NCBI RefSeq assembly: GCF_001477655.1
Contig: NZ_CP011266.1
Location: 1,596,001-1,660,000 of the forward strand
Origin: Methanobrevibacter millerae
GTDB taxonomy: Archaea > Methanobacteriota > Methanobacteria > Methanobacteriales > Methanobacteriaceae
DNA length: 64,000 bases
Direction: 5' to 3'
Part shown: positions 2,453 through 48,884 of the stretch, piece by piece
Position numbering within the stretch: position 1 is the first letter of the stretch
Layout: each line of letters starts with the position of its first letter
The notes under the pieces: model-generated
The model's input: the letters and a program-made list of their open reading frames with translations, nothing else
Told to the model about the DNA's origin: nothing
The model's database searches: none
Made by a program: the position numbers and the translations under genes

Positions 2453-3367
2453 CTATTCCCTCAATGCATCTGCAATACTTTTTGCAAGAGATACACGTGA
2501 AGTATCAGAGGATAAACTGTTTGTACCAATGATTTTTTCAGCTCCGGCAGCATATATTCTAACAGCACCATTATTTGTTAAAATAGGATGTACACAGCAT
2601 ACATCTACAGATTTTGCGCCATATTGTTTTAGAATGTTTATTGCATTTACAATAGTTCCACCGGTTGCTATGATATCATCAATGATAATTGCATGTTTGC
2701 CTTTTACTGAGTCCACATTAACAGTGTTTTCACCTGCACCATCACATCTTACATCAACAATTCTTGTTTCTACTTTATCAGGCCCTAAACGAACTTTGGA
2801 TAAATATGTGCATTCACATCCGATGATTTCAGAGATTTCCTGAGCAAAACCGTATGCGCCTTTATCAGGAGCGATAATCAACGGTTTTTCATCAGTTTTT
2901 CTGAAGAATTTTTTATCCAAATATTCGGCTATTGCAGGCATTGCAGAAATATTTCTAGCCTTAATGTTAAAGAAGTTTAAAACACACTCTTCATGAATAT
3001 TGAATGTTATGAATTCATCAGCACCTGCAGATTCAATTAATTGACAGACAATCTTTGCAGAAACAGCTTCCCCGTCATTGAATCTTTTCTCTTGTCTAGC
3101 ATATCCTAAATATGGGACAACGACACGTACCTTTTTAGCACCTAACTCTTTAAGGGTAGAAATTAAAAATATCAATTCCATCAGATTTTCATCTTGAGGA
3201 AAACCTGTAGATTGAATAACAGTTACTTCATCTTCAATTGTTCCATTAATACGTAAATACTTTTCTCCATCCGGGAATTTCTTAATTTCCACGTAACATA
3301 ATTCTTCTCCAAGTTCTTTAGCAACATGTGCCGCCAAATCCTGAGAAGCTGAACCACCTATAATCAT
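2453..3367 (-). CDS. prs: Ribose-phosphate pyrophosphokinase (PRPP synthetase)
   Basis: Makes phosphoribosyl pyrophosphate from ribose 5-phosphate and ATP, feeding purine, pyrimidine, histidine and methanopterin synthesis. The protein shows the PRPP synthetase opening MIIGGSASQDLA, the ATP-site segment KKFPDGEKYLRI, YARQEKRFNDGEAVSAK, and the PRPP-binding loop IIDDIIATGGTIVNA near residue 220. A TTG start 12 bases further upstream is possible, but GGTGATACTT directly precedes the ATG at 3367, giving about 304 residues, which fits the family. It heads the leftward operon that continues into orf99, uvrB and uvrA. Confidence 0.95.
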   Translation of the reverse strand: MIIGGSASQDLAAHVAKELGEELCYVEIKKFPDGEKYLRINGTIEDEVTVIQSTGFPQDENLMELIFLISTLKELGAKKVRVVVPYLGYARQEKRFNDGEAVSAKIVCQLIESAGADEFITFNIHEECVLNFFNIKARNISAMPAIAEYLDKKFFRKTDEKPLIIAPDKGAYGFAQEISEIIGCECTYLSKVRLGPDKVETRIVDVRCDGAGENTVNVDSVKGKHAIIIDDIIATGGTIVNAINILKQYGAKSVDVCCVHPILTNNGAVRIYAAGAEKIIGTNSLSSDTSRVSLAKSIADALRE

Positions 3368-14984: not shown

Positions 14985-15083
14985 ATCAACCTCACCTTCA
15001 TTAACATTTCCAATCAAAGTGAAGAATCTGGATTATGCAACATATATTCTTTTTAACCAGTTTCATGTTGACGTTGATGTAAC
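14985..15083 (-). repeat. DUF1848 3'-end fragment F1 (degenerate)
   Basis: Read against 40791-40920, the same order of words is seen: TCACC, TTAACAT, CCAATCA, GGATT-TGCAAC, TTTTTAACCAG, TTCATGTTGACGTTG, TAAC. It is the most eroded copy, with a 4-base insertion in the middle. No gene of this family surrounds it; it lies inside the graveyard after the membrane stub. Confidence 0.6.
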
Positions 15084-15137
15084 AATGAATACACTTTGTT
15101 TTTATTCTGTATTTGTCGTATATTTATTCTAAATTTA

Positions 15138-28116: not shown

Positions 28117-28519
28117 CTTTAAAACAGTTATATGAGGATATTTAGGGCAGGTGGGTGGGACATATGCCTTTTTATTTGCACAGTCAAATAAAATAAAATG
28201 TATGACAAAATTCGATGTGATTAATGACCCTATTAATCAATAGGGTTGTTTTTCACATGAAATTTAATTTTAAACTCTTTTTAGTACTTCACTGAATCAT
28301 TTCAATAATGCAAAAAAAATAGAAAATATCATATTCAATGTTTTAGCAAATTTTGTTTCATAAGTAAAAGCGACCATATTCCATCAATTGACAACCAATT
28401 TTATCAATTCATTCATGAAGTTGAAATTTATTCTTCATTTAAAATAATGCTTCATTCATGTGAAGTAATATTATCAACTACATCAAAGTGAAGAACATGA
28501 ATGGAAAAAATTAAAAAAA
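28117..28519. other. Gene-free spacer between convergent genes
   Basis: 403 bases. Apart from the terminator at 28227-28253, only AT-rich sequence with short repeats of TTCATTCATG-type words (around 28410-28460) is seen. No open frame or RNA gene was recognised. Confidence 0.5.
28227..28253 (+). terminator. Terminator downstream of the glutamate synthase block
   Basis: ACCCTATT (28227-28234) and AATAGGGT (28239-28246) form a perfect 8-bp stem with a 4-base loop, followed by TGTTTTT. It is 110 bases after the KaiC/PPDK-like gene and likely ends the nitrogen block. Confidence 0.75.
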
Positions 28520-29365
28520 TTAGATTAATGGTTTTGGACTTTGAGTGAAATCCTGAGGATACTTTTTTTCACATAATTCATATCCAATATATTCCAATCT
28601 TTCATTGAGCAATTTTTTTCCATTTTCAGATACTGCATACAATGGAACTTTTTTTCCAGAATAATATGGCTTTCTCTCTTCAGCTGTTTGCCTCATGTTT
28701 ATAGATGAGCATCCTGAAATCACATCAGCATAATCGAATAACATTTCTGCTTCCTTTTTGGAAACATTGGTTGTATGTGCTACAAAAATATAAATGTTGA
28801 CATCATCCGGTTTTGGATATTGCCTTAAATCCTTAACCATTTCTGTTGGAATAATTGTTATTGCAATGTTTTTATATCCTCTTTCAATTGCCATTTCAAG
28901 ACCTTTTAATGGATTTAACTCTGCAGTTTCAGGATTTAAAACATTTTCTCTCCCAACTTTCTCCATCACTTCTTTGATTGGAGTAGTGCTTATCAATGCT
29001 GAAACTCTTCCCCCCACTCCCTGAACAATTTCTGCATCATTAATAAGCAATGTTCCGACTCCTTCGCATGCTCCAACTACACAATCAATATTGCCCTTAA
29101 TCATATTGGTTTTTAATGTTTCGCTGGTCCCAAAACTCATTGTGTCTTCAACATCAATTGATCTTTGAGGAGTGCACATTCCAAATTCATCAATTCTTTT
29201 TTCAATATTGGATTTAATAAATTCTTTTGTCAAATCACCTTTATGCTGACCATTGTCAAATATGGAACAGTAATCAACTACCGGTTCTCCAATGTAAGTT
29301 ATTTTTCCATTTTCTATTACGACTTCGGCTTTTCCTAATGCTTCAATTACATGTCTATCATTCAT
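28520..29365 (-). CDS. Methanogenesis marker protein 8 (DUF2099)
   Basis: A protein found in essentially all methanogens and linked by co-occurrence to methyl-coenzyme M reductase function, but without a settled biochemical role. Typical stretches are MNDRHVIEALGKAEVVIENG, the Cys-containing YCSIFDNGQHKGDLTKEFI, CTPQRSIDVEDTMSFGTSE, VVGACEGVGTLLINDAEIV, and a late motif DVISGCSSINMRQTAEERK. Length about 281. GGTGAT three bases before the ATG at 29365 decides the start over a longer frame. It is divergent from the HxlR-type regulator gene. Confidence 0.88.
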   Translation of the reverse strand: MNDRHVIEALGKAEVVIENGKITYIGEPVVDYCSIFDNGQHKGDLTKEFIKSNIEKRIDEFGMCTPQRSIDVEDTMSFGTSETLKTNMIKGNIDCVVGACEGVGTLLINDAEIVQGVGGRVSALISTTPIKEVMEKVGRENVLNPETAELNPLKGLEMAIERGYKNIAITIIPTEMVKDLRQYPKPDDVNIYIFVAHTTNVSKKEAEMLFDYADVISGCSSINMRQTAEERKPYYSGKKVPLYAVSENGKKLLNERLEYIGYELCEKKYPQDFTQSPKPLI

Positions 29366-29447
29366 ACAATCACCAGATAACAAATGTTATATACAATGCT
29401 TTTTAAATAGATTTTGTAAGGAAAAACTCACCAGCAGGTAAAAAAAG

Positions 29448-29834
29448 ATGAAAAAAATCAAAGATTATGATGACAATTGCCCTATTGATGATACCTTAAA
29501 ATTAATATCCAAAAAATGGGTGATATTTATCATTAGAGACATATTTTTAGGAAAAAAACAATTCAGCGAATTTTTAGAAGAAAAAACATTAAGTAACAGA
29601 GTATTGACAGACACACTCAAATTCATGGAAGACAATGATTTAATTACGAAACAAGTTTTTGAAAATGACATCAAAACGGAATATTCACTAACACAAAAAG
29701 GATTCAATTTAAATAAAATTCTATATAATATGCTGGAATATGGCATTAATGAGGTAAACAGTGGAAATTTATCTGAAAAACAAAAAGAAGAATTATTAAA
29801 TGAATATGAAACACTTTTTAAAATCAATGATTAA
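29448..29834 (+). CDS. HxlR-family winged-helix regulator
   Basis: 128 residues with the family opening CPIDDTLKLISKKWVIFIIR, whose single Cys often acts as a redox or electrophile sensor. The recognition part is LSNRVLTDTLKFMEDNDLIT, and the wing is TEYSLTQKGFNLN. An AGCAGGTAAAAAAAG site precedes the ATG. It is transcribed away from the marker-8 gene with an 82-base shared promoter region. Targets are unknown; neighbouring exporter genes (32150-33538) are not adjacent. Confidence 0.88.
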   Translation: MKKIKDYDDNCPIDDTLKLISKKWVIFIIRDIFLGKKQFSEFLEEKTLSNRVLTDTLKFMEDNDLITKQVFENDIKTEYSLTQKGFNLNKILYNMLEYGINEVNSGNLSEKQKEELLNEYETLFKIND

Positions 29835-29929
29835 ATTATTATTTAATCGGTTACTGATTTTTACTTGCGAATTTGCCGCCGAATAAAAAGAACATGTATA
29901 AAAAAATACTTTTAGAACAACCTAACTTG

Positions 29930-30091
29930 TGGATCAATATAACTAGGTTCATCAACTTCCTTTACAACATCACCCTCTTTAACTTCCCCAATCAGCAACG
30001 GTGAATCAGGATTGTGCAACTTCTGGTTCTTTTTGACCAGTTTCATGTTGGCGTTGGCATAACACACTTTAAATTATCTACTACTTTTAGT
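29930..30091 (-). repeat. DUF1848 3'-end fragment F2 with conserved flank
   Basis: 29930-30064 carries, in frame, the last 45 codons of the DUF1848 protein: YANANMKLVKKNQKLHNPDS and then LLIGEVKEGDVVKEVDEPSY, still uninterrupted. The match to the intact gene begins exactly at TGTTATGCC. Beyond it comes AATTATCTACTACTTTTAGTG (30071-30091), shared with F3 and F6 but not with the intact gene. The stop codon of ATPase A is 15 bases further on. Confidence 0.8.
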
Positions 30092-30105
30092 GAAATTCAA
30101 CTATG

Positions 30106-31308
30106 CTAAATCATTTCATTATCCATTAAAAAATCAATTAAATTCAAATGAATGATTCCCTCATGAGACATATCCACATCATCCATAGTTATTACATATT
30201 TCGGATAATTATCTGAAATCTTCTTTAATGGTTTAAATTCTCTTTCAATAGTTTCTTCACTTGCCAATAAATAAGAAACTTGAATATAAATGAGTTTATT
30301 TTGTTTTTTGCATACAAAATCCACTTCCAAGTTATCAACTTTACCCATGGTGATTTCATATCCTCTTCTTAAAAGTTCCAAATAAACAATATTTTCGATT
30401 ACACGAGTGATATCCCTTTGATTGTTTCCTATTATTGCTTGTCTAAAACCCAAATCACATAGATAATATTTTTCATCATATTTCAATATTCTTTTACCCT
30501 GTAAATCTTCACGCTTTAGTTGATAAATCAGACATGCGTTTTCAAAGTATTTCAGATAATTGTAAATTGTATTTACAGATAAGCTTACCATATCCTGCTT
30601 TAGTCTTTTATGAATTTTATTTGCAGAAAAGGGCTGGCTAATATTATACATTACAAATCTTATAATCCTATCCAACAGGTCAACATTTTTAACATTATTT
30701 CTTTGAATTATATCTTTAAGGACAATGGAATTGTATAAATCAATTAGAATTAATCTTTTATCCTCACCATTATAGTCAAATGTTGAAGGCATACCTCCAT
30801 CTTCCAAATATCTGTAAAAATGAGATTTAAAATCAGATGTAATTTCATAGTAATCAAGATATTCCCTAAAAGAAAATGGATATATGTTTAATTCCACATA
30901 GCGGCCGGATAAATATGTGGCAAATTCCCCGGACAGTAATTTTGAGTTTGATCCAGTAATATATATGTCATAATTTTCTTTTGCAAAGTAAGAATTGATT
31001 AATTTTTCCCATTGGGGAACAACCTGTATCTCATCAAAAAATAGATAAATCTTACCGTCAATATTTTCAGTTTTATGAGATATAAACTCTTCAAGCTTTT
31101 TAATATTATCAATTTCAAAATAATCACTTAATTCAAAGTTCATCCAAACAATATTCTCCTTTGGGATTCCTTGTTTTATTAATGAATCAATAATTTGTTT
31201 TAATATGGTTGACTTGCCGGAACGTCTTGTTCCAATTAAAACTTTAATAATATGTTTATTTACAAAAGGATTGATTTTATCAATATAATCTTTTCTTTGG
31301 ATAATCAT
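30106..31308 (-). CDS. AAA ATPase with DUF4143-type C-terminus (ATPase A)
   Basis: About 400 residues. Walker A IGTRRSGKSTILKQIID near residue 30, Walker B KIYLFFDEIQVVPQWEKLIN near 95, sensor ITGSNSKLLSGEFATYLSGR, and the PFSFREYLDYY motif place it in the AAA_14/DUF4143 group. The C-terminal part has a restriction-endonuclease-like NLEVDFVCKKQNKLIYIQVS (D...E/Q-x-K pattern). Such ATPases are abundant in archaea and bacteroidetes and their role is unclear. It is a clear paralogue of ATPase B at 39245-40465. It is bracketed by DUF1848 3'-end repeats F3 and F2. ATG at 31308 is preceded by GTGG. Confidence 0.85.
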   Translation of the reverse strand: MIIQRKDYIDKINPFVNKHIIKVLIGTRRSGKSTILKQIIDSLIKQGIPKENIVWMNFELSDYFEIDNIKKLEEFISHKTENIDGKIYLFFDEIQVVPQWEKLINSYFAKENYDIYITGSNSKLLSGEFATYLSGRYVELNIYPFSFREYLDYYEITSDFKSHFYRYLEDGGMPSTFDYNGEDKRLILIDLYNSIVLKDIIQRNNVKNVDLLDRIIRFVMYNISQPFSANKIHKRLKQDMVSLSVNTIYNYLKYFENACLIYQLKREDLQGKRILKYDEKYYLCDLGFRQAIIGNNQRDITRVIENIVYLELLRRGYEITMGKVDNLEVDFVCKKQNKLIYIQVSYLLASEETIEREFKPLKKISDNYPKYVITMDDVDMSHEGIIHLNLIDFLMDNEMI

Positions 31309-31317
31309 TAAAACCAC

Positions 31318-31498
31318 ACATCTTTTTATAATTATTATTTTATCACAAATATAATATAAAGTTTTCAGTATATTAAAAAGTAAATAATAAAATCAATATT
31401 ATTTTCAGTTAAATGAAAATTAATATGAAAATTAGAATATATATTTCAAGTAAATGAAATTAAAATATAGATATGGAAATACACTAATCAAATGAATC
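31318..31498. other. AT-rich leader of ATPase A
   Basis: Upstream region of ATPase A holding repeated words ATGAAAATTA, AATATGAAAATTAG and AAGTAAATGAAAT, which may be regulatory. No gene is visible between here and fragment F3. Confidence 0.35.
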
Positions 31499-31745
31499 TT
31501 GTTGTGTATCAATAAAACTAGATTCCCTAACCTATTTTACAACTTCACCAACATTAACATCACCAATCAATAAAGGAAAATCTTGATCATGTAATTTTTG
31601 ATTCATTTTGGTCAGATTCATCTTGTTGCTGGCATAACAGCATAGAAATTATCTACTAAAAATTGAAATTTTGTTTCTATATTGCGAAGAAAACATGATT
31701 AAAAAGTATGAAAATCATCACCTGCATTTTAGTCAGATTTTGCCT
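31499..31745 (-). repeat. DUF1848 3'-end fragment F3 with long conserved flank
   Basis: 31499-31638 matches the last codons and 3' end of the DUF1848 gene (TGTGTATCAATA, TTCACCAACATTAACATC, CACCAATCAA, TTGGTCAGATTCAT) with moderate divergence. The flank 31647-31745 (AAATTATCTACTA, GCGAAGAAAACATGATTAAA, TTTTAGTCAG) matches the flank of F6 at 39113-39215. The repeat unit is therefore about 240 bases, not only the coding end. It lies 190 bases upstream of ATPase A. Confidence 0.7.
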
Positions 31746-31888
31746 CATAGTTAACGAACAAATATTGCTCTTAAAATATAATGCCACAATATTAAAATAG
31801 TCTCTTTCAAAAACTTTTATAAAAATACAAATATAAATAATAATATAATATATCATTAGGCTGAAGTCTAGGATATTAAATTTTATAT

Positions 31889-31970
31889 AGATGTGTGTCC
31901 GAGTGGTCAAAGGAGGATGATTCAGGGTCATTTGCTTAGTGCTGCGTGGGTTCGAATCCCATCACATCTA
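31889..31970 (+). tRNA. tRNA-Leu (anticodon CAG)
   Basis: Acceptor AGATGTG pairs with CACATCT (31963-31969). The D-arm has TCCGAGTGGTCAAAGGA, typical of tRNA-Leu. The anticodon loop TTCAGGG carries CAG, between GATGA and TCATT. A long variable arm (TTGCTTAGTGCTGC) marks a class II tRNA, and the T-arm has GGGTTCGAATCCC. CCA is not encoded. A DUF1848 fragment (F4) begins 38 bases after its end. Confidence 0.93.
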
Positions 31971-32007
31971 CTTTTTTTTAACTCCCTAAAAAGAATGATT
32001 AAATCAA

Positions 32008-32060
32008 TTTTGCTGCCCATCAATATAGCTTGGTTCTTGAACTTCATTTATAACATCACT
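32008..32060 (-). repeat. DUF1848 3'-end fragment F4 (short)
   Basis: Matches only the last 53 bases or so of the DUF1848 reading frame (CAATATAGCTTGGTTCTTGA, ACTTCATTTATAACATCAC against 40788-40832). It is cut off at the ATCAC word by a different sequence, a RhuM-like fragment on the other strand. Confidence 0.65.
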
Positions 32061-32063
32061 ATA

Positions 32064-32153
32064 GAAACTGAGTTTATAACTGGAAATGAAACATTATGGT
32101 CAAGTCAAAAAGTCATAGCAGAAATATTTGGAACAATATCCAGTCACTGTTAA
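32064..32153 (+). pseudogene. RhuM-like N-terminal fragment
   Basis: 30 codons reading NITIETEFITGNETLWSSQK and then VIAEIFGTISSHC before a stop. The NETLW-SSQKVIAEIFG pattern is the start of RhuM/Fic-associated DNA-binding proteins (ETVWLTQEQMAELF in many bacteria). There is no start codon and the rest of the gene is missing. It abuts fragment F4, which suggests a recombination joint. Confidence 0.45.
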
Positions 32154-33538
32154 TCATCCACAATGTCATTTTTATTTTTTATAAACAGAATTGTTATTAT
32201 TAACAAGACCACAGTTATTATTATCATCATTAATGAAGTCATACTAAATGAATTAACGGAAAACTGATTATGAGTAATTTTTCCATTTGCCAATATCTGC
32301 ATTATCACAACTGTAACTGATGATCCAATAGCTCCTACAACCTGCCTTGTGGTATTGTTGACTGCAGTTGCATCCTCAACATCACCTGCAACAACACTCA
32401 TTGCCCAAGTAATTGCAGGTGATAAACCAAGCCCACAGCCGATTCCCCGGATTAACTGAGTAGCCAACAGATATTCGAAAGTGGAATTCATGTTATAAGT
32501 CATCATACAAGCAAATCCAATAATATTCATAATTGATGAGGCTATTAAAACTGGCTTTATTCCAATCTTATCAGCCATTATAGGGCTTATGAAATTGAAC
32601 ACAATCATGATTATTGCTGCAGGGAACAATATGAGTCCGGATTCTGTTGGAGAGTAATATGCAACATTTTGTACAAACAACGGCACCATTACATTGATTC
32701 CACACATCATAAAGTATAGCAATGCTGCAAAAACAGTCCCATATACAAAATATTTATTTTTCAGTACTATTAAGTTAACAAGCGGATTTTCAATTTTGTT
32801 TTGACGTTTAACAAATATTATTAATGTCAATATTCCAATGATTATTGGTAAAATCACATGAATAAAGCTGAATCCAAACTCTGCAATATTTGAAAATCCT
32901 ATCATCAACCCTACACAGAATATTATTGACAATATCAATGATGGGAAATCCAAAGGATAATTTTGGGTTTCAAGTTCAAAGTTTGCAAGGAGTATTGATA
33001 AAACTAGAATTACTACAGTTATTATCGCTAAAAATTCAAAAATAACTCTCCAATTAAATAAGTCAATTATAATTCCGCCGATTGTAGGTCCCATTGCAGG
33101 CACAATTCCAACAAGAAATCCCATTAATCCCATGAAAAATCCCCATTTTTCTTCAGGCATTATTCTAAAGATTAATATTTGACCGATTGGCATTAAAATA
33201 CCAGTTCCCATAGCTTCCAAGATTCTTCCAACAATTAACATTTCAAAGTTTGTTGATAAAAAACAAAGCAGGGATCCAATGATAAAAAGAATGAGTGATG
33301 TTATCAATATTGTTTTAATTTTAAATCTTTTTGTAATATATGCAGTTGGCGGAATCATTACTCCAATCACCAACAGAAATACTGAGTATGTCCATTGCGC
33401 AGTTGCTGAAGATACAGCAAAATCATCCATATAATAAGGCAAACTTGTTGTTACAATACTTTGTGAGATTAATGTAACTGCAGAAGCCATAATAAGTATA
33501 ATCAAAGTTATTAATCCACTTTTATTTTCAAATTCCAT
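32150..33538 (-). CDS. MFS exporter, DHA2 (14-helix) family
   Basis: About 462 residues with multiple membrane helices. The family features are TTSLPYYMDDFAVSSATAQW, the motif-A-like PTAYITKRFKIKTILI, EAMGTGILMPIGQILIF, and the exporter motif C LVGIVPAMGPTIGGIIIDL. The frame allows a start at 33565, but ATG at 33538 gives a normal cytoplasmic N-terminus (MEFENKSGLITLIILIM). It lies directly downstream of a truncated MATE gene on the same strand. It is only distantly similar to the exporter at 15440-16960. Substrate unknown. Confidence 0.88.
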   Translation of the reverse strand: MEFENKSGLITLIILIMASAVTLISQSIVTTSLPYYMDDFAVSSATAQWTYSVFLLVIGVMIPPTAYITKRFKIKTILITSLILFIIGSLLCFLSTNFEMLIVGRILEAMGTGILMPIGQILIFRIMPEEKWGFFMGLMGFLVGIVPAMGPTIGGIIIDLFNWRVIFEFLAIITVVILVLSILLANFELETQNYPLDFPSLILSIIFCVGLMIGFSNIAEFGFSFIHVILPIIIGILTLIIFVKRQNKIENPLVNLIVLKNKYFVYGTVFAALLYFMMCGINVMVPLFVQNVAYYSPTESGLILFPAAIIMIVFNFISPIMADKIGIKPVLIASSIMNIIGFACMMTYNMNSTFEYLLATQLIRGIGCGLGLSPAITWAMSVVAGDVEDATAVNNTTRQVVGAIGSSVTVVIMQILANGKITHNQFSVNSFSMTSLMMIIITVVLLIITILFIKNKNDIVDD

Positions 33539-33565
33539 TATAATTGTTCCATAATTTGTTGTCAA

Positions 33566-34048: not shown

Positions 34049-34303
34049 CTAATTTGACCATTTACGGCTTAAGTCAGTGTCATTAAATACAGTTTTTTCT
34101 TGACATTCTTTTAACTCACTTATGCCATCTCTAAAGAATTTTAAGCAGAAATCTTTTTTTGGATTGTAATTATCACAGTTTAAATGAATATTTTCCTGAC
34201 AGTTATCACAACCAATGTCGCTACCTTTTTTGTTTTTACAGCATAATTCATCATTATCATCAAGATAACGGTATTCACAGTCTTTAAATATTATATCATT
34301 CAT
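34049..34303 (-). CDS. Small cysteine-rich protein of unknown function
   Basis: About 84 residues with seven cysteines: CEYRYLDDNDELCCKNKKGS, IGCDNCQENIHLNCDNYNP, and KDFCLKFFRDG, plus one more near the end (ELKECQEK). The spacing suggests two metal sites. It is acidic and soluble. GGAGATTGGATTTT before the ATG at 34303 decides the start over a longer frame. I do not recognise the family. It stands alone. Confidence 0.65.
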   Translation of the reverse strand: MNDIIFKDCEYRYLDDNDELCCKNKKGSDIGCDNCQENIHLNCDNYNPKKDFCLKFFRDGISELKECQEKTVFNDTDLSRKWSN

Positions 34304-34371
34304 AAAATCCAATCTCCCATTTAATATATTTATCAAATATTAATCTGTTAATAAGAGAATAAATAAATTAT

Positions 34372-34509
34372 TATCCAAACAGTAACATAAATCTGGTTAA
34401 AAAGAACATTACACTTCACAATTCTTCATCAACACTGTTAATTGGCAATGTCAAAAAGGGCGATATTATTAAAGAATCCGTAAAACTTCCCATATTGATA
34501 ACAACATAA
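34372..34509 (+). repeat. DUF1848 3'-end fragment F5 (opposite orientation)
   Basis: The + strand reads YPNSNINLVKKNITLHNSSS and then TLLIGNVKKGDIIKESVKLP, which lines up over its whole length with YANANMKLVKRNQKLHNPDS / PLLIGEVKDGDVVKEVNEPS of the DUF1848 protein. It begins at the same codon as the other fragments. It is the only copy on this strand and the most diverged at protein level while still open. It falls in the leader of the C69 peptidase gene; no other feature was seen in 34304-34698 apart from that promoter region. Confidence 0.7.
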
Positions 34510-37602: not shown

Positions 37603-38784
37603 TTAATATGGATAATCCCCTTTTTCTTCATATTCCTTTTTTAACCATGCTTTGAATATAGAATCATATATTTGATATTTTTCATTATTCAATTCTATTA
37701 ATATTTTATTCTGTAAAGTTTTTAATGATGCTCCAATAGCTCCACTTTTCACACCTAATTTATTTGCTATATCAATTCTTCTTAATGGTTTTTCAACAAG
37801 AGCCACGATAATTCTTTGTTCCTGTTTAGTTAATTTATACCATTCATTAGTAAGATGAATCAATAAGTAAGGTAAGGATTTTTTAAATTCTGAAATTATT
37901 TTTTCTTCATTCAACTCTTCATTAGGCGGCAAGAGTCTAGCAAAGCTATTAATGTAATATGGAATTCCATTTGTGCATTTATAAAATCTTTTAAATCCGT
38001 CATCTGTGAATTCAAGATAATCTGCTTTTTCAGCCAGGTAATCTTTTGTTGTTTCATATGAGAATGTTTTGATTTCATAATTGAGGATTCTACCACCAAA
38101 AGCTCCTTTTTGACCAGCAATATCTGATATCAGTTCATCTTTAACACTCATGCTTCCTGAGAAAATATAACCAATATTTTTTTGTGATTGGATAACACTT
38201 CTAATATACCATAAAAATCCATTTACATCTTCATCAAGCTGTTTTAGGATTTGAAATTCATCCATAAATATTAAAATACCTCCAATATGCTCTTCGCAAT
38301 CATCATAGATTTGTTGAGGCAAATCCATCACAAAACTTGTAAATTTAGTATAATCTTCTTCTGTTTTAAGAATAGGAATTGGGATTTTGTCTACTGACTC
38401 TATTTTGTCCATTATGAAATTACGAGTTTTAAAATACTTCAGAATTTTTGTATCAATTGTAATAATATTTGATTCATCACATGCATTTATAATGGATTCG
38501 TAAAATAATCTCATAAAGCAAAAACGATCAAGTTTATCTTTTTTAAATTTATCCATTGCTGATAAATCCATATAGACAACCAAATATTCATTTTGAAAGT
38601 CTTTTTTTAATTTTTTCATTAATGCAGTTTTTCCAACACCCCTAATACCTGTAAGCAGTATTGTTGGTGTTGAACCTTTTTTAGCTAGTTCTAGATTATC
38701 AGAGATAAATGAAATTTCATCTACCCTATTGTAAAACTGTGAATCATCTAAATCATTATCATTTCCTAATGGTAAACTTGCCAT
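37603..38784 (-). CDS. Archaeal AAA ATPase with winged-helix C-terminus (ATPase C)
   Basis: 393 residues. Walker A LTGIRGVGKTALMKKLKKDF near residue 50, Walker B IGGILIFMDEFQILKQLDED, and a sensor SGSMSVKDELISDIAGQKGA. The C-terminal 90 residues are a winged helix (EQRIIVALVEKPLRRIDIAN, KLGVKSGAIGASLKTLQNK). This is the ATPase_2 type, distinct from ATPases A and B, which carry DUF4143-like tails. AGGTGAATATT before the ATG at 38784 sets the start. A repeated element lies ahead of the gene. Role unknown. Confidence 0.85.
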   Translation of the reverse strand: MASLPLGNDNDLDDSQFYNRVDEISFISDNLELAKKGSTPTILLTGIRGVGKTALMKKLKKDFQNEYLVVYMDLSAMDKFKKDKLDRFCFMRLFYESIINACDESNIITIDTKILKYFKTRNFIMDKIESVDKIPIPILKTEEDYTKFTSFVMDLPQQIYDDCEEHIGGILIFMDEFQILKQLDEDVNGFLWYIRSVIQSQKNIGYIFSGSMSVKDELISDIAGQKGAFGGRILNYEIKTFSYETTKDYLAEKADYLEFTDDGFKRFYKCTNGIPYYINSFARLLPPNEELNEEKIISEFKKSLPYLLIHLTNEWYKLTKQEQRIIVALVEKPLRRIDIANKLGVKSGAIGASLKTLQNKILIELNNEKYQIYDSIFKAWLKKEYEEKGDYPY

Positions 38785-38830
38785 AATATTCACCTAAATT
38801 AGTTAATATTCTGTTAATCAAGTTATATAA

Positions 38831-38912: not shown

Positions 38913-38965
38913 ATAACATTACATTAAAAAAATTAAATCATCAATACAATTATATTAGAATAATG

Positions 38966-39225
38966 TAGTTTATGGATTAATATAGCTTGGCTCATTAACT
39001 TCCATTACGGTTTCGCCATCTTTAACCTCACCAATCAGCAATGGCGAATAAGGATTGTGCAACTTCTGGTTCCTTTTAACCAAGTTCATGTTACTGTTGG
39101 CATAACACACTTCAAATTATCTACTACTTTTAGTGAAATTTGTTCAATACAATACGAAGAAAAAATGATTAAAAAGTAGAAGAATTATCTACTACTTTTT
39201 AGACAGCTTAGTTTCATAATAGAAA
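38966..39225 (-). repeat. DUF1848 3'-end fragment F6 with long conserved flank
   Basis: 38966-39105 matches the DUF1848 3' end (TTAATATAGCTTGGCTCATT, CTTTAACCTCACCAATCAGC, AAGGATTGTGCAACTTCTGG, CATGTTACTGTTGGCATAAC). The flank 39113-39225 (AAATTATCTACTACTTTTAG, ACGAAGAAAAAATGATTAAA, a second AATTATCTACTACTTTTTAG, TTTCATAATAG) corresponds to that of F3. It ends 20 bases before the stop of ATPase B. Confidence 0.75.
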
Positions 39226-39244: not shown

Positions 39245-40465
39245 TTAAATTTCATCACCTAATAAAAAGTCAATTATGTTCATATGTTTTATTCCATCTC
39301 TAGACATGTTAAATTCATCCATACTAAATACATATGCATCATATTTATCAGGAATGTTTAATAATGGTGTAAATTCCCGTTCTATTGTTTCATCAGAAGC
39401 TAAAAGATAAGCAACCTGAATATAAATTTTATTATTCTTATTTTTAGCTATGAAATCTACTTCCTTATTTTTAACCCAACCCACTTTAACTGAATATCCA
39501 CGTCTTAAAAGTTCAATATACACAATGTTTTCAATTATTCTAGGTAACCATTTATTATTTTCATCAACCAACGCCTGATGAAATCCATGATCCGTTAAAT
39601 AGTATTTTTCATCTGTAGATAAGAGTTTTTTTCCAAGTATGTCTTCACGTAGCACTCTATGGCAAAATAGTGATTCAACAATGAAGTTTGTATAATTATT
39701 GATAGTTTCTCTTGAAGTTCTTTTACTTTCAGATTTTAAAAAATTTGCAATACTTTTTTTAGAGAATGTTTGCCCTATGGAATTCATAATATAATAAACG
39801 AATCTTTTAAATGTGTCAATTCTTCTGATTTCATGTCTTGAAAGTATATCACTAATAATGATAGAATCATAGATGTCAAGAAGTGCATTGATTTTACCAT
39901 CTTCATCTTTTAAAGAAAGCAATGACGGCATTCCACCATATTCTATGTATTGCATGAAATATTCATATATCTTAGTTTTATCCATTTTAATATTGTTAAT
40001 TTCATTATGATACTTTAAAATTTCTTTAAATGAAAAAGGATAAATGTTTATATGAACATATCTTCCTGCGACCAATGTTGAAAGTTCAGATGAGAACAAT
40101 TTTGAATTAGATCCAGTAACATAAATATCACAATCAAAAGAAACCCTATATGAATTAATTGACTCTTCCCATTCATCAACCAATTGAATTTCATCAAACA
40201 ATAAATAGATCTTACCCTCAATATCTTTAACCTTATCTAAAACAACTTCATCCAATTCTTTTGATGTCTTAATATGTCTATATTTCACATTTTCTAATGA
40301 TATGTAAATTATATTCTCATCAGCAATACCTAAACCCTTAAGTTCCTCGATAATACTTTTTAAAAATGTTGTTTTTCCACATCTACGCAACCCAATAATA
40401 ATTTTAAGAAAATCCGTGTCCAAATAGTTATAAAAAACATTAAGATAATCTTCTCTTTTAATCAT
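39245..40465 (-). CDS. AAA ATPase with DUF4143-type C-terminus (ATPase B)
   Basis: 406 residues, co-linear with ATPase A. Walker A IIGLRRCGKTTFLKSIIEEL near residue 25, Walker B KIYLLFDEIQLVDEWEESIN, sensor YVTGSNSKLFSSELSTLVAG, then PFSFKEILKYHNEI. The tail has NKEVDFIAKNKNNKIYIQVA, the nuclease-like pattern, then LLASDETIEREFTPLLNIPD, shared almost word for word with ATPase A (LLASEETIEREFKPLKKISD). It is bracketed by the intact DUF1848 3' end on its upstream side and F6 on its downstream side. A perfect tandem repeat lies in its leader. Confidence 0.85.
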   Translation of the reverse strand: MIKREDYLNVFYNYLDTDFLKIIIGLRRCGKTTFLKSIIEELKGLGIADENIIYISLENVKYRHIKTSKELDEVVLDKVKDIEGKIYLLFDEIQLVDEWEESINSYRVSFDCDIYVTGSNSKLFSSELSTLVAGRYVHINIYPFSFKEILKYHNEINNIKMDKTKIYEYFMQYIEYGGMPSLLSLKDEDGKINALLDIYDSIIISDILSRHEIRRIDTFKRFVYYIMNSIGQTFSKKSIANFLKSESKRTSRETINNYTNFIVESLFCHRVLREDILGKKLLSTDEKYYLTDHGFHQALVDENNKWLPRIIENIVYIELLRRGYSVKVGWVKNKEVDFIAKNKNNKIYIQVAYLLASDETIEREFTPLLNIPDKYDAYVFSMDEFNMSRDGIKHMNIIDFLLGDEI

Positions 40466-40767: not shown

Positions 40768-41691
40768 TTAAAATAGTTTCTGTTTTGTGTCAATATAGCT
40801 GGGTTCATTAACCTCTTTTACAACATCACCATCTTTAACCTCACCAATCAGCAAGGGCGAATCCGGATTGTGCAACTTTTGGTTCCTTTTGACCAGCTTC
40901 ATGTTGGCGTTGGCATAACAATATTTACATCCATGCATACATGTGTTATATAATCCAATATCCCTTCCCATTAAACAGTTGCATTCACGATTTTTGTATT
41001 TTCCTTTAGGTACTTTTAAATTATTTCCAATAGCTTTTTCAAGCACCTGCTGTGTCATGCAACCTGATGAATCAAAACCGAACTGGTCAAGCAATGTGCC
41101 TTCAACACAGGTCTTCATTTGTATACCATATTCATCAGCAATCTCTGCAAAATTTTTTCCAATGACTAATCTCTCTTCTGTCGTTACTTCACGGCCTTGC
41201 GGAAAATTCCTTAAGACCTTCTGGTATAAATCAATGAAACTTATTGTGCAGTCTGAAGTATATTCATGCAATTGTGATGCCATATCCCCAAACCGGTCAA
41301 TGTGAAAATCCAAATCATACTTTTCAGTGATGAAAATCGGATCATATCTCCATGCCACTGCATTGGCTCCCAAATTCTCTGAAAGTATTTTAAATGTTTT
41401 AATAACTTTTTTATAATTTGGAACGTTTACTTCAATGTCCTTTCCATAGGACGTTATTGTAACAAACCAAAACTGCCTGTATTCAGATAGATTGTCCAAT
41501 TTTTTAACCAAATGCTTTGGATTTTTAGAACAAAAGCAAATGCAATCCACAGTCTTGGGATTGAAATTGTATTTATAAATTTGATTGTTATATGGGTTTT
41601 TGCTTAAAACAAATCCTTCATCAATTCTTTTGAGAAACCATTTATGAAAAAAAGCTGGAATGTCCGTTCTGGTTCCTGTATTAAGTATCAT
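40768..41691 (-). CDS. DUF1848 family protein (intact source of the repeated 3' ends)
   Basis: 307 residues. The family start MILNTGTRTDIPAFFHKWF (canonically SRRTDIPAFY) is followed by GFVLSKNPYNNQIYKYNFNP, VDCICFCSKNPKHLVKKLDN, and the C-terminal CMHGCKYCYANANMKLVKRN, a Cys motif suggestive of an iron-sulfur site. A TIM-barrel fold is generally expected. Function unknown. The frame could begin at 41763, but residue 25 is the normal start. That ATG sits in the T-tract of the thiolase terminator with no ribosome binding site, so expression is doubtful. From CY-ANANM onward the gene end is duplicated at six other places. Confidence 0.85.
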   Translation of the reverse strand: MILNTGTRTDIPAFFHKWFLKRIDEGFVLSKNPYNNQIYKYNFNPKTVDCICFCSKNPKHLVKKLDNLSEYRQFWFVTITSYGKDIEVNVPNYKKVIKTFKILSENLGANAVAWRYDPIFITEKYDLDFHIDRFGDMASQLHEYTSDCTISFIDLYQKVLRNFPQGREVTTEERLVIGKNFAEIADEYGIQMKTCVEGTLLDQFGFDSSGCMTQQVLEKAIGNNLKVPKGKYKNRECNCLMGRDIGLYNTCMHGCKYCYANANMKLVKRNQKLHNPDSPLLIGEVKDGDVVKEVNEPSYIDTKQKLF

Positions 41692-42874
<1,183 letters not shown>

Positions 42875-47567: not shown

Positions 47568-47700
47568 TTGAACTTCCCCGCCGTTGGAGACGACGGGGAT
47601 TCGCAAACCAAAAAAATGTATATTTTTTGGATGTTTTTACTGCATCGTAGTCCCTACGATTTCTAATCCGTTATTAAGGATATTAATTGCTGCATTAACA
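47568..47700 (-). ncRNA. Predicted omega-RNA (right-end RNA) of TnpB
   Basis: TnpB nucleases use an RNA made from the 3' end of their own gene and the element's right end. Here the minus strand has the stem CCCCGTCG (47598-47591) with CGGCGGGG (47583-47576), seven standard pairs plus one G-U, a 7-base loop, then AAGTTCAA. The guide would be the next bases outside the element, 47567 downward, which are adhesin sequence. The upstream limit of the RNA inside tnpB is a guess. Confidence 0.55.
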
Positions 47701-48884
47701 TCTCTGTTATGATGTGTGCCGCATTTTGGGCAAATCCAGTCTCTTATTCCCAAGTTTCCTATTCCACCAACATTTGAGTTTATTTTTCGGCATTTGCTGC
47801 ATGTTTGTGTGGACGGGAAATTTTTAGAAACTTTAACAAATCCGATATTGTTCCATTGTGATTTGTATTCTATTTTGTCCATGAAGTTGCGTGGTGCGTT
47901 TAATTGTAGTTTTCTAGATAAGAATTTGTTGTGTTTCCATGCTATGATGTTTTCATTTTGAACAGCAATGAAACAAGCATTCTCAACAATACATGTAGTT
48001 ATTTTATCGTAATAATCGTTTCTTTTGTTGACTAGTTTGCGCATCCATTTGTGGTAGAGTTTTTTTGCTTTTTTGTATCTGTTGGAGTCTTTTTTGTGGT
48101 GTGACATCATTTTTTGATATTGTATGATTTTTTCTGTTTCTTTTTCTAGGTTTAGATTGGGTATCTCCTTGCTGTTAGAAAAAACAGCTAGTTTGCTGCA
48201 TCCAATATCAATTCCAAGTTGTTGTTTTGGTCCGATAATTTTAACAGGAACGTGAATGCATTCGATGTTGAAAACAGCATAATACTTGTCATTTACACGT
48301 TTAACAACCACATGCTTTATTTTTACACTTTCATCGTTGGGATTGCTTCCTTTTAGTAGTAGTTTTTTGTATTCTTTGCTGGTTTTGAATTTGACCAGTC
48401 CTAGTTTGGCTAATTTAATTTTGTAGTATCCGTTTTTATCTTTCTGTATTCGGATGTTGTTGTTATTGTTCATTATTCTGAATGTGAATTTTTGAGTGTT
48501 TTTACGTTTTTTTAAAACAGGATAATGGGATTTTAAATCATGTTTAAAATATCGTTTAAAAGCAGTTACCAAGTCTTTTTGAGATTGTTGTCTGCTGCTT
48601 GACTCTGCTTTTTCTAAAAATGCATATTCCTGTCTTAACATCTTTAAAATAACATCACATGAACTTTGAGTGATCCATAATTTATCCTCATAACCATTCT
48701 GTTTTAACAATTGTCTAAAATAATTTATAAACGCCAATTCCATGTTATAGATGAAACGGTAAATGCCTATATTGGATTCTATTTCATTAATACTGGTGAT
48801 TTTTTCACCATTATCATTCTTATCCATTTGAGACGGATAAATACGAACTTCAAGATACTTATTAACAATTTTCAAAATTAACAA
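47637..48884 (-). CDS. tnpB: TnpB-type RNA-guided nuclease (IS605 OrfB family)
   Basis: 415 residues. The RuvC-like nuclease shows QLGIDIGCSKLAVFSN (first Asp), and the C-terminal HHNRDVNAAINIL-type motif (third Asp) after a zinc finger CSKCRKINSNVGG-CPKCG. The second site reads ACFIAVQNENIIAW: the strand-end position that normally holds Glu (VVEDL) is Gln, with Glu two residues on. The N-terminus has the wedge/helical part (SNIGIYRFIYNMELAFINYF). Translation appears to start at TTG (48884), with GGGTTT ahead of it; the next ATG would cut the first strand. In the family this protein cuts DNA under omega-RNA guidance and favours retention of the element. Confidence 0.9.
   Translation of the reverse strand: MLILKIVNKYLEVRIYPSQMDKNDNGEKITSINEIESNIGIYRFIYNMELAFINYFRQLLKQNGYEDKLWITQSSCDVILKMLRQEYAFLEKAESSSRQQSQKDLVTAFKRYFKHDLKSHYPVLKKRKNTQKFTFRIMNNNNNIRIQKDKNGYYKIKLAKLGLVKFKTSKEYKKLLLKGSNPNDESVKIKHVVVKRVNDKYYAVFNIECIHVPVKIIGPKQQLGIDIGCSKLAVFSNSKEIPNLNLEKETEKIIQYQKMMSHHKKDSNRYKKAKKLYHKWMRKLVNKRNDYYDKITTCIVENACFIAVQNENIIAWKHNKFLSRKLQLNAPRNFMDKIEYKSQWNNIGFVKVSKNFPSTQTCSKCRKINSNVGGIGNLGIRDWICPKCGTHHNRDVNAAINILNNGLEIVGTTMQ

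Follow-up and report, generated by a model that had tools for sequence, protein, structure and literature searches.

Genes and repeats at the locus

The window analysed here is a stretch of 64,000 nucleotides from the genome of Methanobrevibacter millerae SM9 (NZ_CP011266.1, positions 1,596,001 to 1,660,000). It harbours a single complete DUF1848 gene, followed by ATPase, transporter and regulator genes that are interspersed with short copies of the end of that gene. The features are given here from the DUF1848 gene downstream, with one distant fragment last.

40768–41763, minus strand: intact DUF1848 gene (PF08902, E=4e-94), head of the array, its 3' part being the predicted attB; sole full copy in the genome, with the same head 5' of arrays in 20 loci
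40909–40919, minus strand: core GTTATGCCAAC in the head, codons CYAN; in 13 other genomes DUF1848 is interrupted at this point by the predicted provirus attL
39245–40465, minus strand: cassette 1, ATPase B (AAA_14 and DUF4143, domain match), which recurs in G017, G075 and G009
38955–39209, minus strand: F1, consisting of arm, core (39096–39106) and DUF1848 3' end with a stop several codons early (repeat alignment)
37603–38793, minus strand: archaeal ATPase (PF01637) after F1, a probable cassette gene from domain match and array position, its right-hand site not preserved
34365–34505, plus strand: degenerate, inverted copy of the DUF1848 end (sequence similarity), the sole exception in orientation
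34049–34336, minus strand: intact 95-aa ORF with GAATACCGTTATCTTGATGAT; in G089 an array of three cassettes interrupts the homologue at GTTA
32150–33565, minus strand: MFS transporter (domain match); a relative in G015 is a cassette behind a site
32009–32061, minus strand: short DUF1848 tail fragment, a remnant site (sequence similarity)
~31490–31770, minus strand: F3, consisting of a long arm region, core (31628–31638) and a DUF1848 3' end that stops prematurely; it borders the ATPase A cassette on the left
30106–31317, minus strand: ATPase A cassette (AAA_14 and DUF4143, PF13173/PF13635, domain match), with copies in other species
~29912–30098, minus strand: F2, consisting of arm, core (30053–30063) and an intact 49-codon DUF1848 3' end; it borders the ATPase A cassette on the right
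29448–29834, plus strand: HxlR-type regulator belonging to the next cassette; in G018, HxlR-DUF2099 has a site on each side
28520–29383, minus strand: DUF2099 gene of the same cassette; similarity to the G018 cassette spans window positions 30097 to 28304
28260–28310, minus strand: degenerate arm region (read by eye in the window), the probable distal end of the array; the G018 similarity stops at 28304, where G018 has a site
14987–15090, minus strand: further degenerate fragment of the DUF1848 end, outside the array (sequence similarity)

A tRNA-Leu(CAG) gene (31889–31971) is also located within the array, between F3 and the MFS gene. A TnpB-type protein (IS605 OrfB, 47637–48884) is encoded elsewhere in the window with no visible link to the repeats, and the ends of an IS605-type element were rejected as a source of the arm since this TnpB has no link to the site. 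Outside the window, the SM9 genome contains a second, decayed array at 1.221–1.237 Mb (L010/L011), which carries a truncated cognate integrase and shares fragments with the window, namely the end of a cobyric acid synthase gene and an MFS gene that is 72% alike.

F1, F2 and F3 can be aligned to the terminal ~150 bp of the DUF1848 gene, and in all three the homology begins at one constant point, GTTATGCCAA, corresponding to the codons CYAN and preceded by AAAAGTAGTAGATAATTT and 7–8 bases. Read in this way, they are copies of one site with three parts: an arm (AAAAGTAGTAGATAATTT and 7–8 nt), the core GTTATGCCAA and the last ~49 codons of DUF1848. All intact copies in the window are on the minus strand, 3' of the full DUF1848 gene and co-oriented. 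The 27-bp arm-and-core pattern occurs three times in the window, with 0.01 occurrences expected from shuffled sequence, and this is not due to chance. In its exact form it was found in 25 stretches among 84,980 bacterial and archaeal species genomes, all of them Methanobrevibacter. The DUF1848 end was also considered as a free-standing small gene, the 49-codon frame being open in many internal copies; this was rejected on account of stop codons in the upstream arm and of the heads, which reveal the parent gene.

The sequence-only reading of this DNA had placed ATPase A between two direct repeats of the DUF1848 end in the same orientation, with only 15 bases separating the ATPase stop from F2. 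Both points hold, as F2 and F3 share homology with one another as well as with F1 and the DUF1848 3' end, and the gap is indeed tiny, some 8–15 bases. Seven other genomes have ~150 bp of additional arm sequence between ATPase A and the site, and the short gap is therefore a secondary deletion in SM9. The description of the repeats was accurate for their DUF1848-derived part but incomplete, since ~30–40 bp of integrase arm upstream is also common to them. Likewise, ATPase A is bracketed, but it is only one of several units 3' of the intact DUF1848 gene.

Distribution of the site in Methanobrevibacter

The site is present in 50 of 67 Methanobrevibacter genomes and in none of 24 genomes from outside the genus, and it has no match in the IMG/VR virus collection. 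A site profile search, for which about 60 loci were fetched from related genomes (most of the genomes compared being metagenome assemblies), identified 157 sites in 62 loci. In multi-site loci 145 of 146 sites are co-oriented, the exception being the degenerate inverted copy in the window. The median spacing is 1.8 kb, with 1–4 genes between sites. Intact DUF1848 is the first member in 20 loci, and site copies follow wherever the contig is long enough. Encoded between the sites are AAA_14/DUF4143 ATPases, PF01637 ATPases, MFS transporters, an ABC transporter, RhuM, flavin reductases, PdxS-PdxT and DUF2099, as well as TauE with a ParA-like ATPase and an HxlR regulator, and a MarR regulator with an HXXEE protein. 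Recurrent cassettes fall into 17 families, each found in 2–10 genomes with changing neighbours; the ATPase B cassette, for example, follows the DUF1848 head in G017 and G075 and has other surroundings in G009. On their left side, cassettes have a second frequent neighbour, which again meets them at the core: a recurrent non-DUF1848 sequence (ACTACTTGAGTATTATTGGAAAAGTTG...), found at about nine loci (e.g. L080, L096, L097, L187 and L192).

The 3' end of the head gene is intact as far as the sequences extend: all 20 heads are open, 19 reaching the stop at exactly 49 codons and one being cut by the end of its contig. Among internal copies, 72 of 101 have DUF1848 ends of at least 46 codons. Open heads and mostly long internal ends are what frequent passage of cassettes through the head would be expected to leave. 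The heads of G070 and G090, which share their first cassette, differ by 3.5% in the DUF1848 end and by 25% in the body. A tree-like comparison with the upstream thiolase gave a rho of −0.01 for the head 3' end, and that for the DUF1848 body was no higher than 0.17; with such poor discrimination the comparison does not count as evidence.

ATPase A as a probable mobile unit

ATPase A occurs at 93–95% protein identity in at least eight species, and each copy is followed by the site, or by arm and core. Its neighbours vary and include the DUF1848 head (G010), pdxS-pdxT (G070 and G090), the MarR/HXXEE cassette (G066), and the tRNA-Leu and MFS genes in SM9. Relatives at 85–86% identity are found outside arrays in G013 and G022. 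The view of ATPase A as an integrated cassette with flanking repeats, one of two put forward from the sequence alone, gains support from this recurrence across species, with the same site behind it and different genes around it. It had also been anticipated that strains without ATPase A would contain one continuous repeat. This was met in kind by G018, in which a single continuous site, with no ATPase A, precedes an HxlR-DUF2099 cassette 86% alike to that of SM9; the unit before that site is MarR/HXXEE, and no empty site with exactly the same flanks was found.

The other view, a tandem duplication of a DUF1848–ATPase segment with subsequent loss of the DUF1848 body, could draw on the homology of ATPases A and B (47%) and on the copy of the DUF1848 end that follows each of them. 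However, the two ATPases are too divergent for a recent duplication, while ATPase A is about 94% alike between species and yet located in different places. Furthermore, DUF1848 does not include the arm, and the same layout is seen with other cargo. The comparison across genomes contradicts duplication, which would not place one and the same cassette, with identical borders at the core, among different neighbours, and we give this explanation next to no credence.

The integrase and its proviruses

A tyrosine recombinase of 368 aa matching Phage_integrase (PF00589) adjoins the site in some genomes, and its family is represented in 56 of the 67 genomes of the genus. Within a close subfamily (93–100% identity) the gene is divergent from the adjoining arm and core in all four copies that retain this end (G036, G089, G004 and G018), and so is the integrase fragment in SM9. 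In G036 (contig C33) and G018 (contig C86) the order is integrase, site, cassettes. Members of the family elsewhere have other arms and other neighbours. An alignment of 12 members revealed an invariant H265-x-x-R268 and an invariant Tyr300, the latter being read by eye as the presumptive catalytic residue. In SM9 only residues 1–121 of the cognate integrase remain, and the SM9 row is probably static for this reason. The integrase shares 58% identity with that encoded next to the published PCR primer site of MSTV1. MSTV1, a tailed M. smithii virus, undergoes excision at its att sites (PMC12134362).

Where DUF1848 stops near codon 286, the break consists of the core followed by the inverted arm AAATTATCTACTACTTTT in 13 of 13 fetched genomes, a few of them with 1–2 bases changed, and we assign this junction, on its sequence, as the left end (attL) of a provirus. 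Just inside this left end a complete DUF1848 gene of the provirus is located, only 39% identical to that of the host (L203–L215; L130:3282–4250), and possibly it replaces the function destroyed by insertion. An element of ~21 kb in G004 has the core GTTATGCCAA at both ends, near 3054 and 24508 (L130:3054 and L131:4508, the latter equal to G004:C13:24508). It encodes a clear terminase large subunit (phrog_979) and two candidate structural proteins without a match. From the split protein and its mcr-type neighbours, we read the gene that it interrupts as mrtB, encoding the beta subunit of methyl-coenzyme M reductase II, while the target of the proviral element in G089 was read by eye as an McrB-like (restriction) gene.

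These proviruses allow for a further explanation of the array, in which each F would be the relic of one old provirus in a series of integrations and decays, the genes in between being viral leftovers and nothing moving as a cassette. F is built like the right end (attR) of a provirus, and proviruses are found at exactly the place of F in 13 genomes. Yet the cassettes start with the core and the DUF1848 end instead of with a provirus left end, units of 1–3 kb recur near-identically beside different neighbours, and cargo such as PdxS-PdxT and MFS transporters is not viral. Serial decay is consequently considered very improbable as an account of the row.

Probable exchange of cassettes at the core

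The borders of what is exchanged can be located by comparing near-identical cassettes in different surroundings. Two species share the HxlR-ParA-TauE cassette at 99.5% identity; it is situated behind F in G017 and behind the head in G006. On its left, where the F arm of G017 meets the DUF1848 body of G006, identity starts exactly at TATGCCAAC; on its right, the two are identical through the arm and GTTACGCCAA and divergent directly after. Base-by-base mapping of mismatches in near-identical pairs, which are not independent of each other, placed several left switches of identity at −2 to 0 of the core and many right switches at +3 to +12, the tightest cases leaving only (G)TTA. Some switches were found at +25 to +118, inside the DUF1848-derived part, which indicates a further contribution from homologous recombination between the ~150-bp repeats or from a second integrase.

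A more telling pair is provided by G036 and G089, which contain the same three cassettes, the first one 100% identical. In G036 they follow integrase and F, whereas in G089 they lie in the 95-aa ORF, split at GTTA, whose uninterrupted form is found at window positions 34049–34336. As this ORF has no homology to DUF1848, entry at GTTA in G089 cannot stem from such homology, and the pair forms, as judged from the sequences, the strongest case against simple homologous recombination.

Could proviruses merely have left copies of the DUF1848 end, whose contents were then shuffled by ordinary recombination between the ~150-bp repeats? In length and similarity these would suffice for it, and the switches at +25 to +118 are of the kind that this would leave. 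However, several switches lie 0–3 bases from the core, the G089 array starts at the core in an ORF without DUF1848 homology, and at about nine loci cassettes also start at the core after the second recurrent sequence, which is not DUF1848-derived either. Homologous recombination acting alone is thus regarded as unlikely, and site-specific exchange at the core remains the preferred reading.

Some of the internal switches may have another origin. Some 121 bp beyond the first core, within the final codons of DUF1848, ATATTGAT forms the border in four loci, and the arm to the left of it is then of another kind, GATAAG..G.ACAA.T.TTTCATGAGTC. In G015 an arm of the GATAAG type ends the contig of another integrase (L124), 54% identical to the first. 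A second integrase subtype appears to use ATATTGAT as its own site (L124, L178, L180, L184 and L195); such a site is consistent with part of the internal switches, and one gene end may thus serve two integrases.

Comparison with known systems

Integrons, and arrays lacking an integrase (CALINs), resemble the rows described here in their co-oriented cassettes of single or few genes, each with a terminal recombination site, in the many arrays without integrase and in variable adaptive cargo. The tyrosine recombinase gene that adjoins the site and diverges from it is shared with integrons in G036 and G018, but not in SM9. They differ in that the Methanobrevibacter sites carry 49 codons of a host gene and that the anchor is this host gene and not an attI. 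Integron integrase models gave no match to the recombinase; NCBIfam returned only XerA-, XerC- and XerD-type models, all below cut-off, and a PDB search only XerA, weakly, and one unrelated protein. F2 folds no better than shuffled sequence (z 0.56) while F1 and the integrase-adjacent site form hairpins (z about −3.3), so an attC-type fold is not common to the sites and attC-like folding was rejected as a shared feature. The cores read GTTATGC or GTTACGC with a pyrimidine at the fifth base, so that GTTRRRY is not met. The array, then, works like an integron but is not one, lacking a match to IntI, an attC-type site and a GTTRRRY core. Archaeal integrons are known (Ghaly et al. 2022, PMC9668308), and a text search of the main text of that paper found no mention of Methanobrevibacter.

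MSTV1 and related tailed proviruses of Methanobrevibacter share the integrase family (58%), a terminase and site-specific integration in a protein-coding gene (PMC12134362). The M. smithii provirus is assigned another target gene (PMC12134362; Msmi-Pro1 cited in PMC8371274), and no cassette arrays are described for MSTV1 or Msmi-Pro1 in the sections available of either paper. A 2.9-kb circle of metabolic genes without an integrase has been described from vesicles of M. smithii, and its authors observed no direct repeats flanking it (PMC12134362). It is alike in genus, small size and metabolic content, and may be unrelated because of the missing repeats.

The array may also be set beside two further kinds of element. 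Staphylococcal cassette chromosome (SCC) elements at rlmH form tandem rows at the 3' end of a conserved gene, with direct repeats between them, the gene end kept whole and some members lacking a recombinase; they use serine recombinases. Tycheposons and virus satellites are cargo elements without a full set of virus genes that rely on tyrosine recombinases acting at attachment sites held in common; in the case of tycheposons these are tRNA genes, and the elements are larger. The Methanobrevibacter units differ from tycheposons in comprising 1–4 genes and in being repeatedly chained at a protein gene. With SCC they have the anchoring at a gene end in common, but SCC elements are larger, and here the units have 1–4 genes, a 49-codon end and an adjacent recombinase of the tyrosine family (PF00589), so that the serine recombinase (ccr) that marks SCC is not met; SCC-type contexts lacking ccr have been reported (PMC3637587).

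We found no paper on DUF1848 in Methanobrevibacter. To judge from titles and abstracts, the literature on Methanobrevibacter together with integrons or gene cassettes contains no description of such an array. A text search of the SM9 genome paper returned mention of a single 49-kb prophage and none of an array.

A model for cassette capture

We consider it probable that the repeats are recombination sites derived from a proviral tyrosine recombinase, at which packets of single genes collect as a row of cassettes. The likely enzyme is the recombinase with 58% identity to that of MSTV1, although no excision, circle or integrase activity has been observed. According to this model, a virus integrates into DUF1848 at the core GTTATGCCAA, where the conserved codons CYAN serve as attB, and its circular attP is inferred as arm, core and inverted arm (AAAAGTAGTAGATAATTT ... 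GTTATGCCAA ... AAATTATCTACTACTTTT). F is of the attR type, composed of arm, core and the displaced 49-codon 3' end of DUF1848, and the integrase would be expected to contact AGTAGATAATTT and the core on it. Such F sites would then serve as cassette sites, a cassette being made up of core, DUF1848 3' end, one or more genes, arm and core. Two co-oriented F sites may recombine to release a circle with one F, and the circle could enter any other core, most usefully that of the intact DUF1848 gene, where the entering cassette would donate its own DUF1848 end for the displaced one and leave the host gene whole. Repeated insertion would build up a row behind DUF1848, of which ATPase A, as F3-A-F2, would be one member.

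The anatomy of the site, the attL and attR junctions at the same core, the identity of cassettes across species, the switches at the core and the intact 3' ends of the heads can be read in the sequences themselves. By comparison, the movement of cassettes by the integrase, the circular intermediate and the head as the usual point of entry are inferences. How a gene first becomes a cassette is not explained by the model.

Implications

Integrons are usually viewed as a single invention by one integrase family. The wider proposal, on which we find the case evenly balanced, is that integron-like gene capture arose independently from the integrase of an archaeal virus, the att site in a host gene having become a cassette site and each cassette bringing a working copy of that gene's end, by which the gene outlasts every insertion. 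It includes two related integrases acting at two nested cores, and the spread of accessory genes, including those for vitamin B6 synthesis, among rumen Methanobrevibacter. If true, this second, virus-derived route would mean that a phage-type integration site can turn into a platform for gene capture, and the provirus ends, the nested sites and the arrays with and without integrase represent intermediates by which the route may be tested. A defined 10-bp core in a conserved gene is also a possible tool for gene insertion in rumen methanogens. For the rumen methanogens themselves the mechanism would, if true, explain much of their variation in accessory genes, which is of relevance to methane control.
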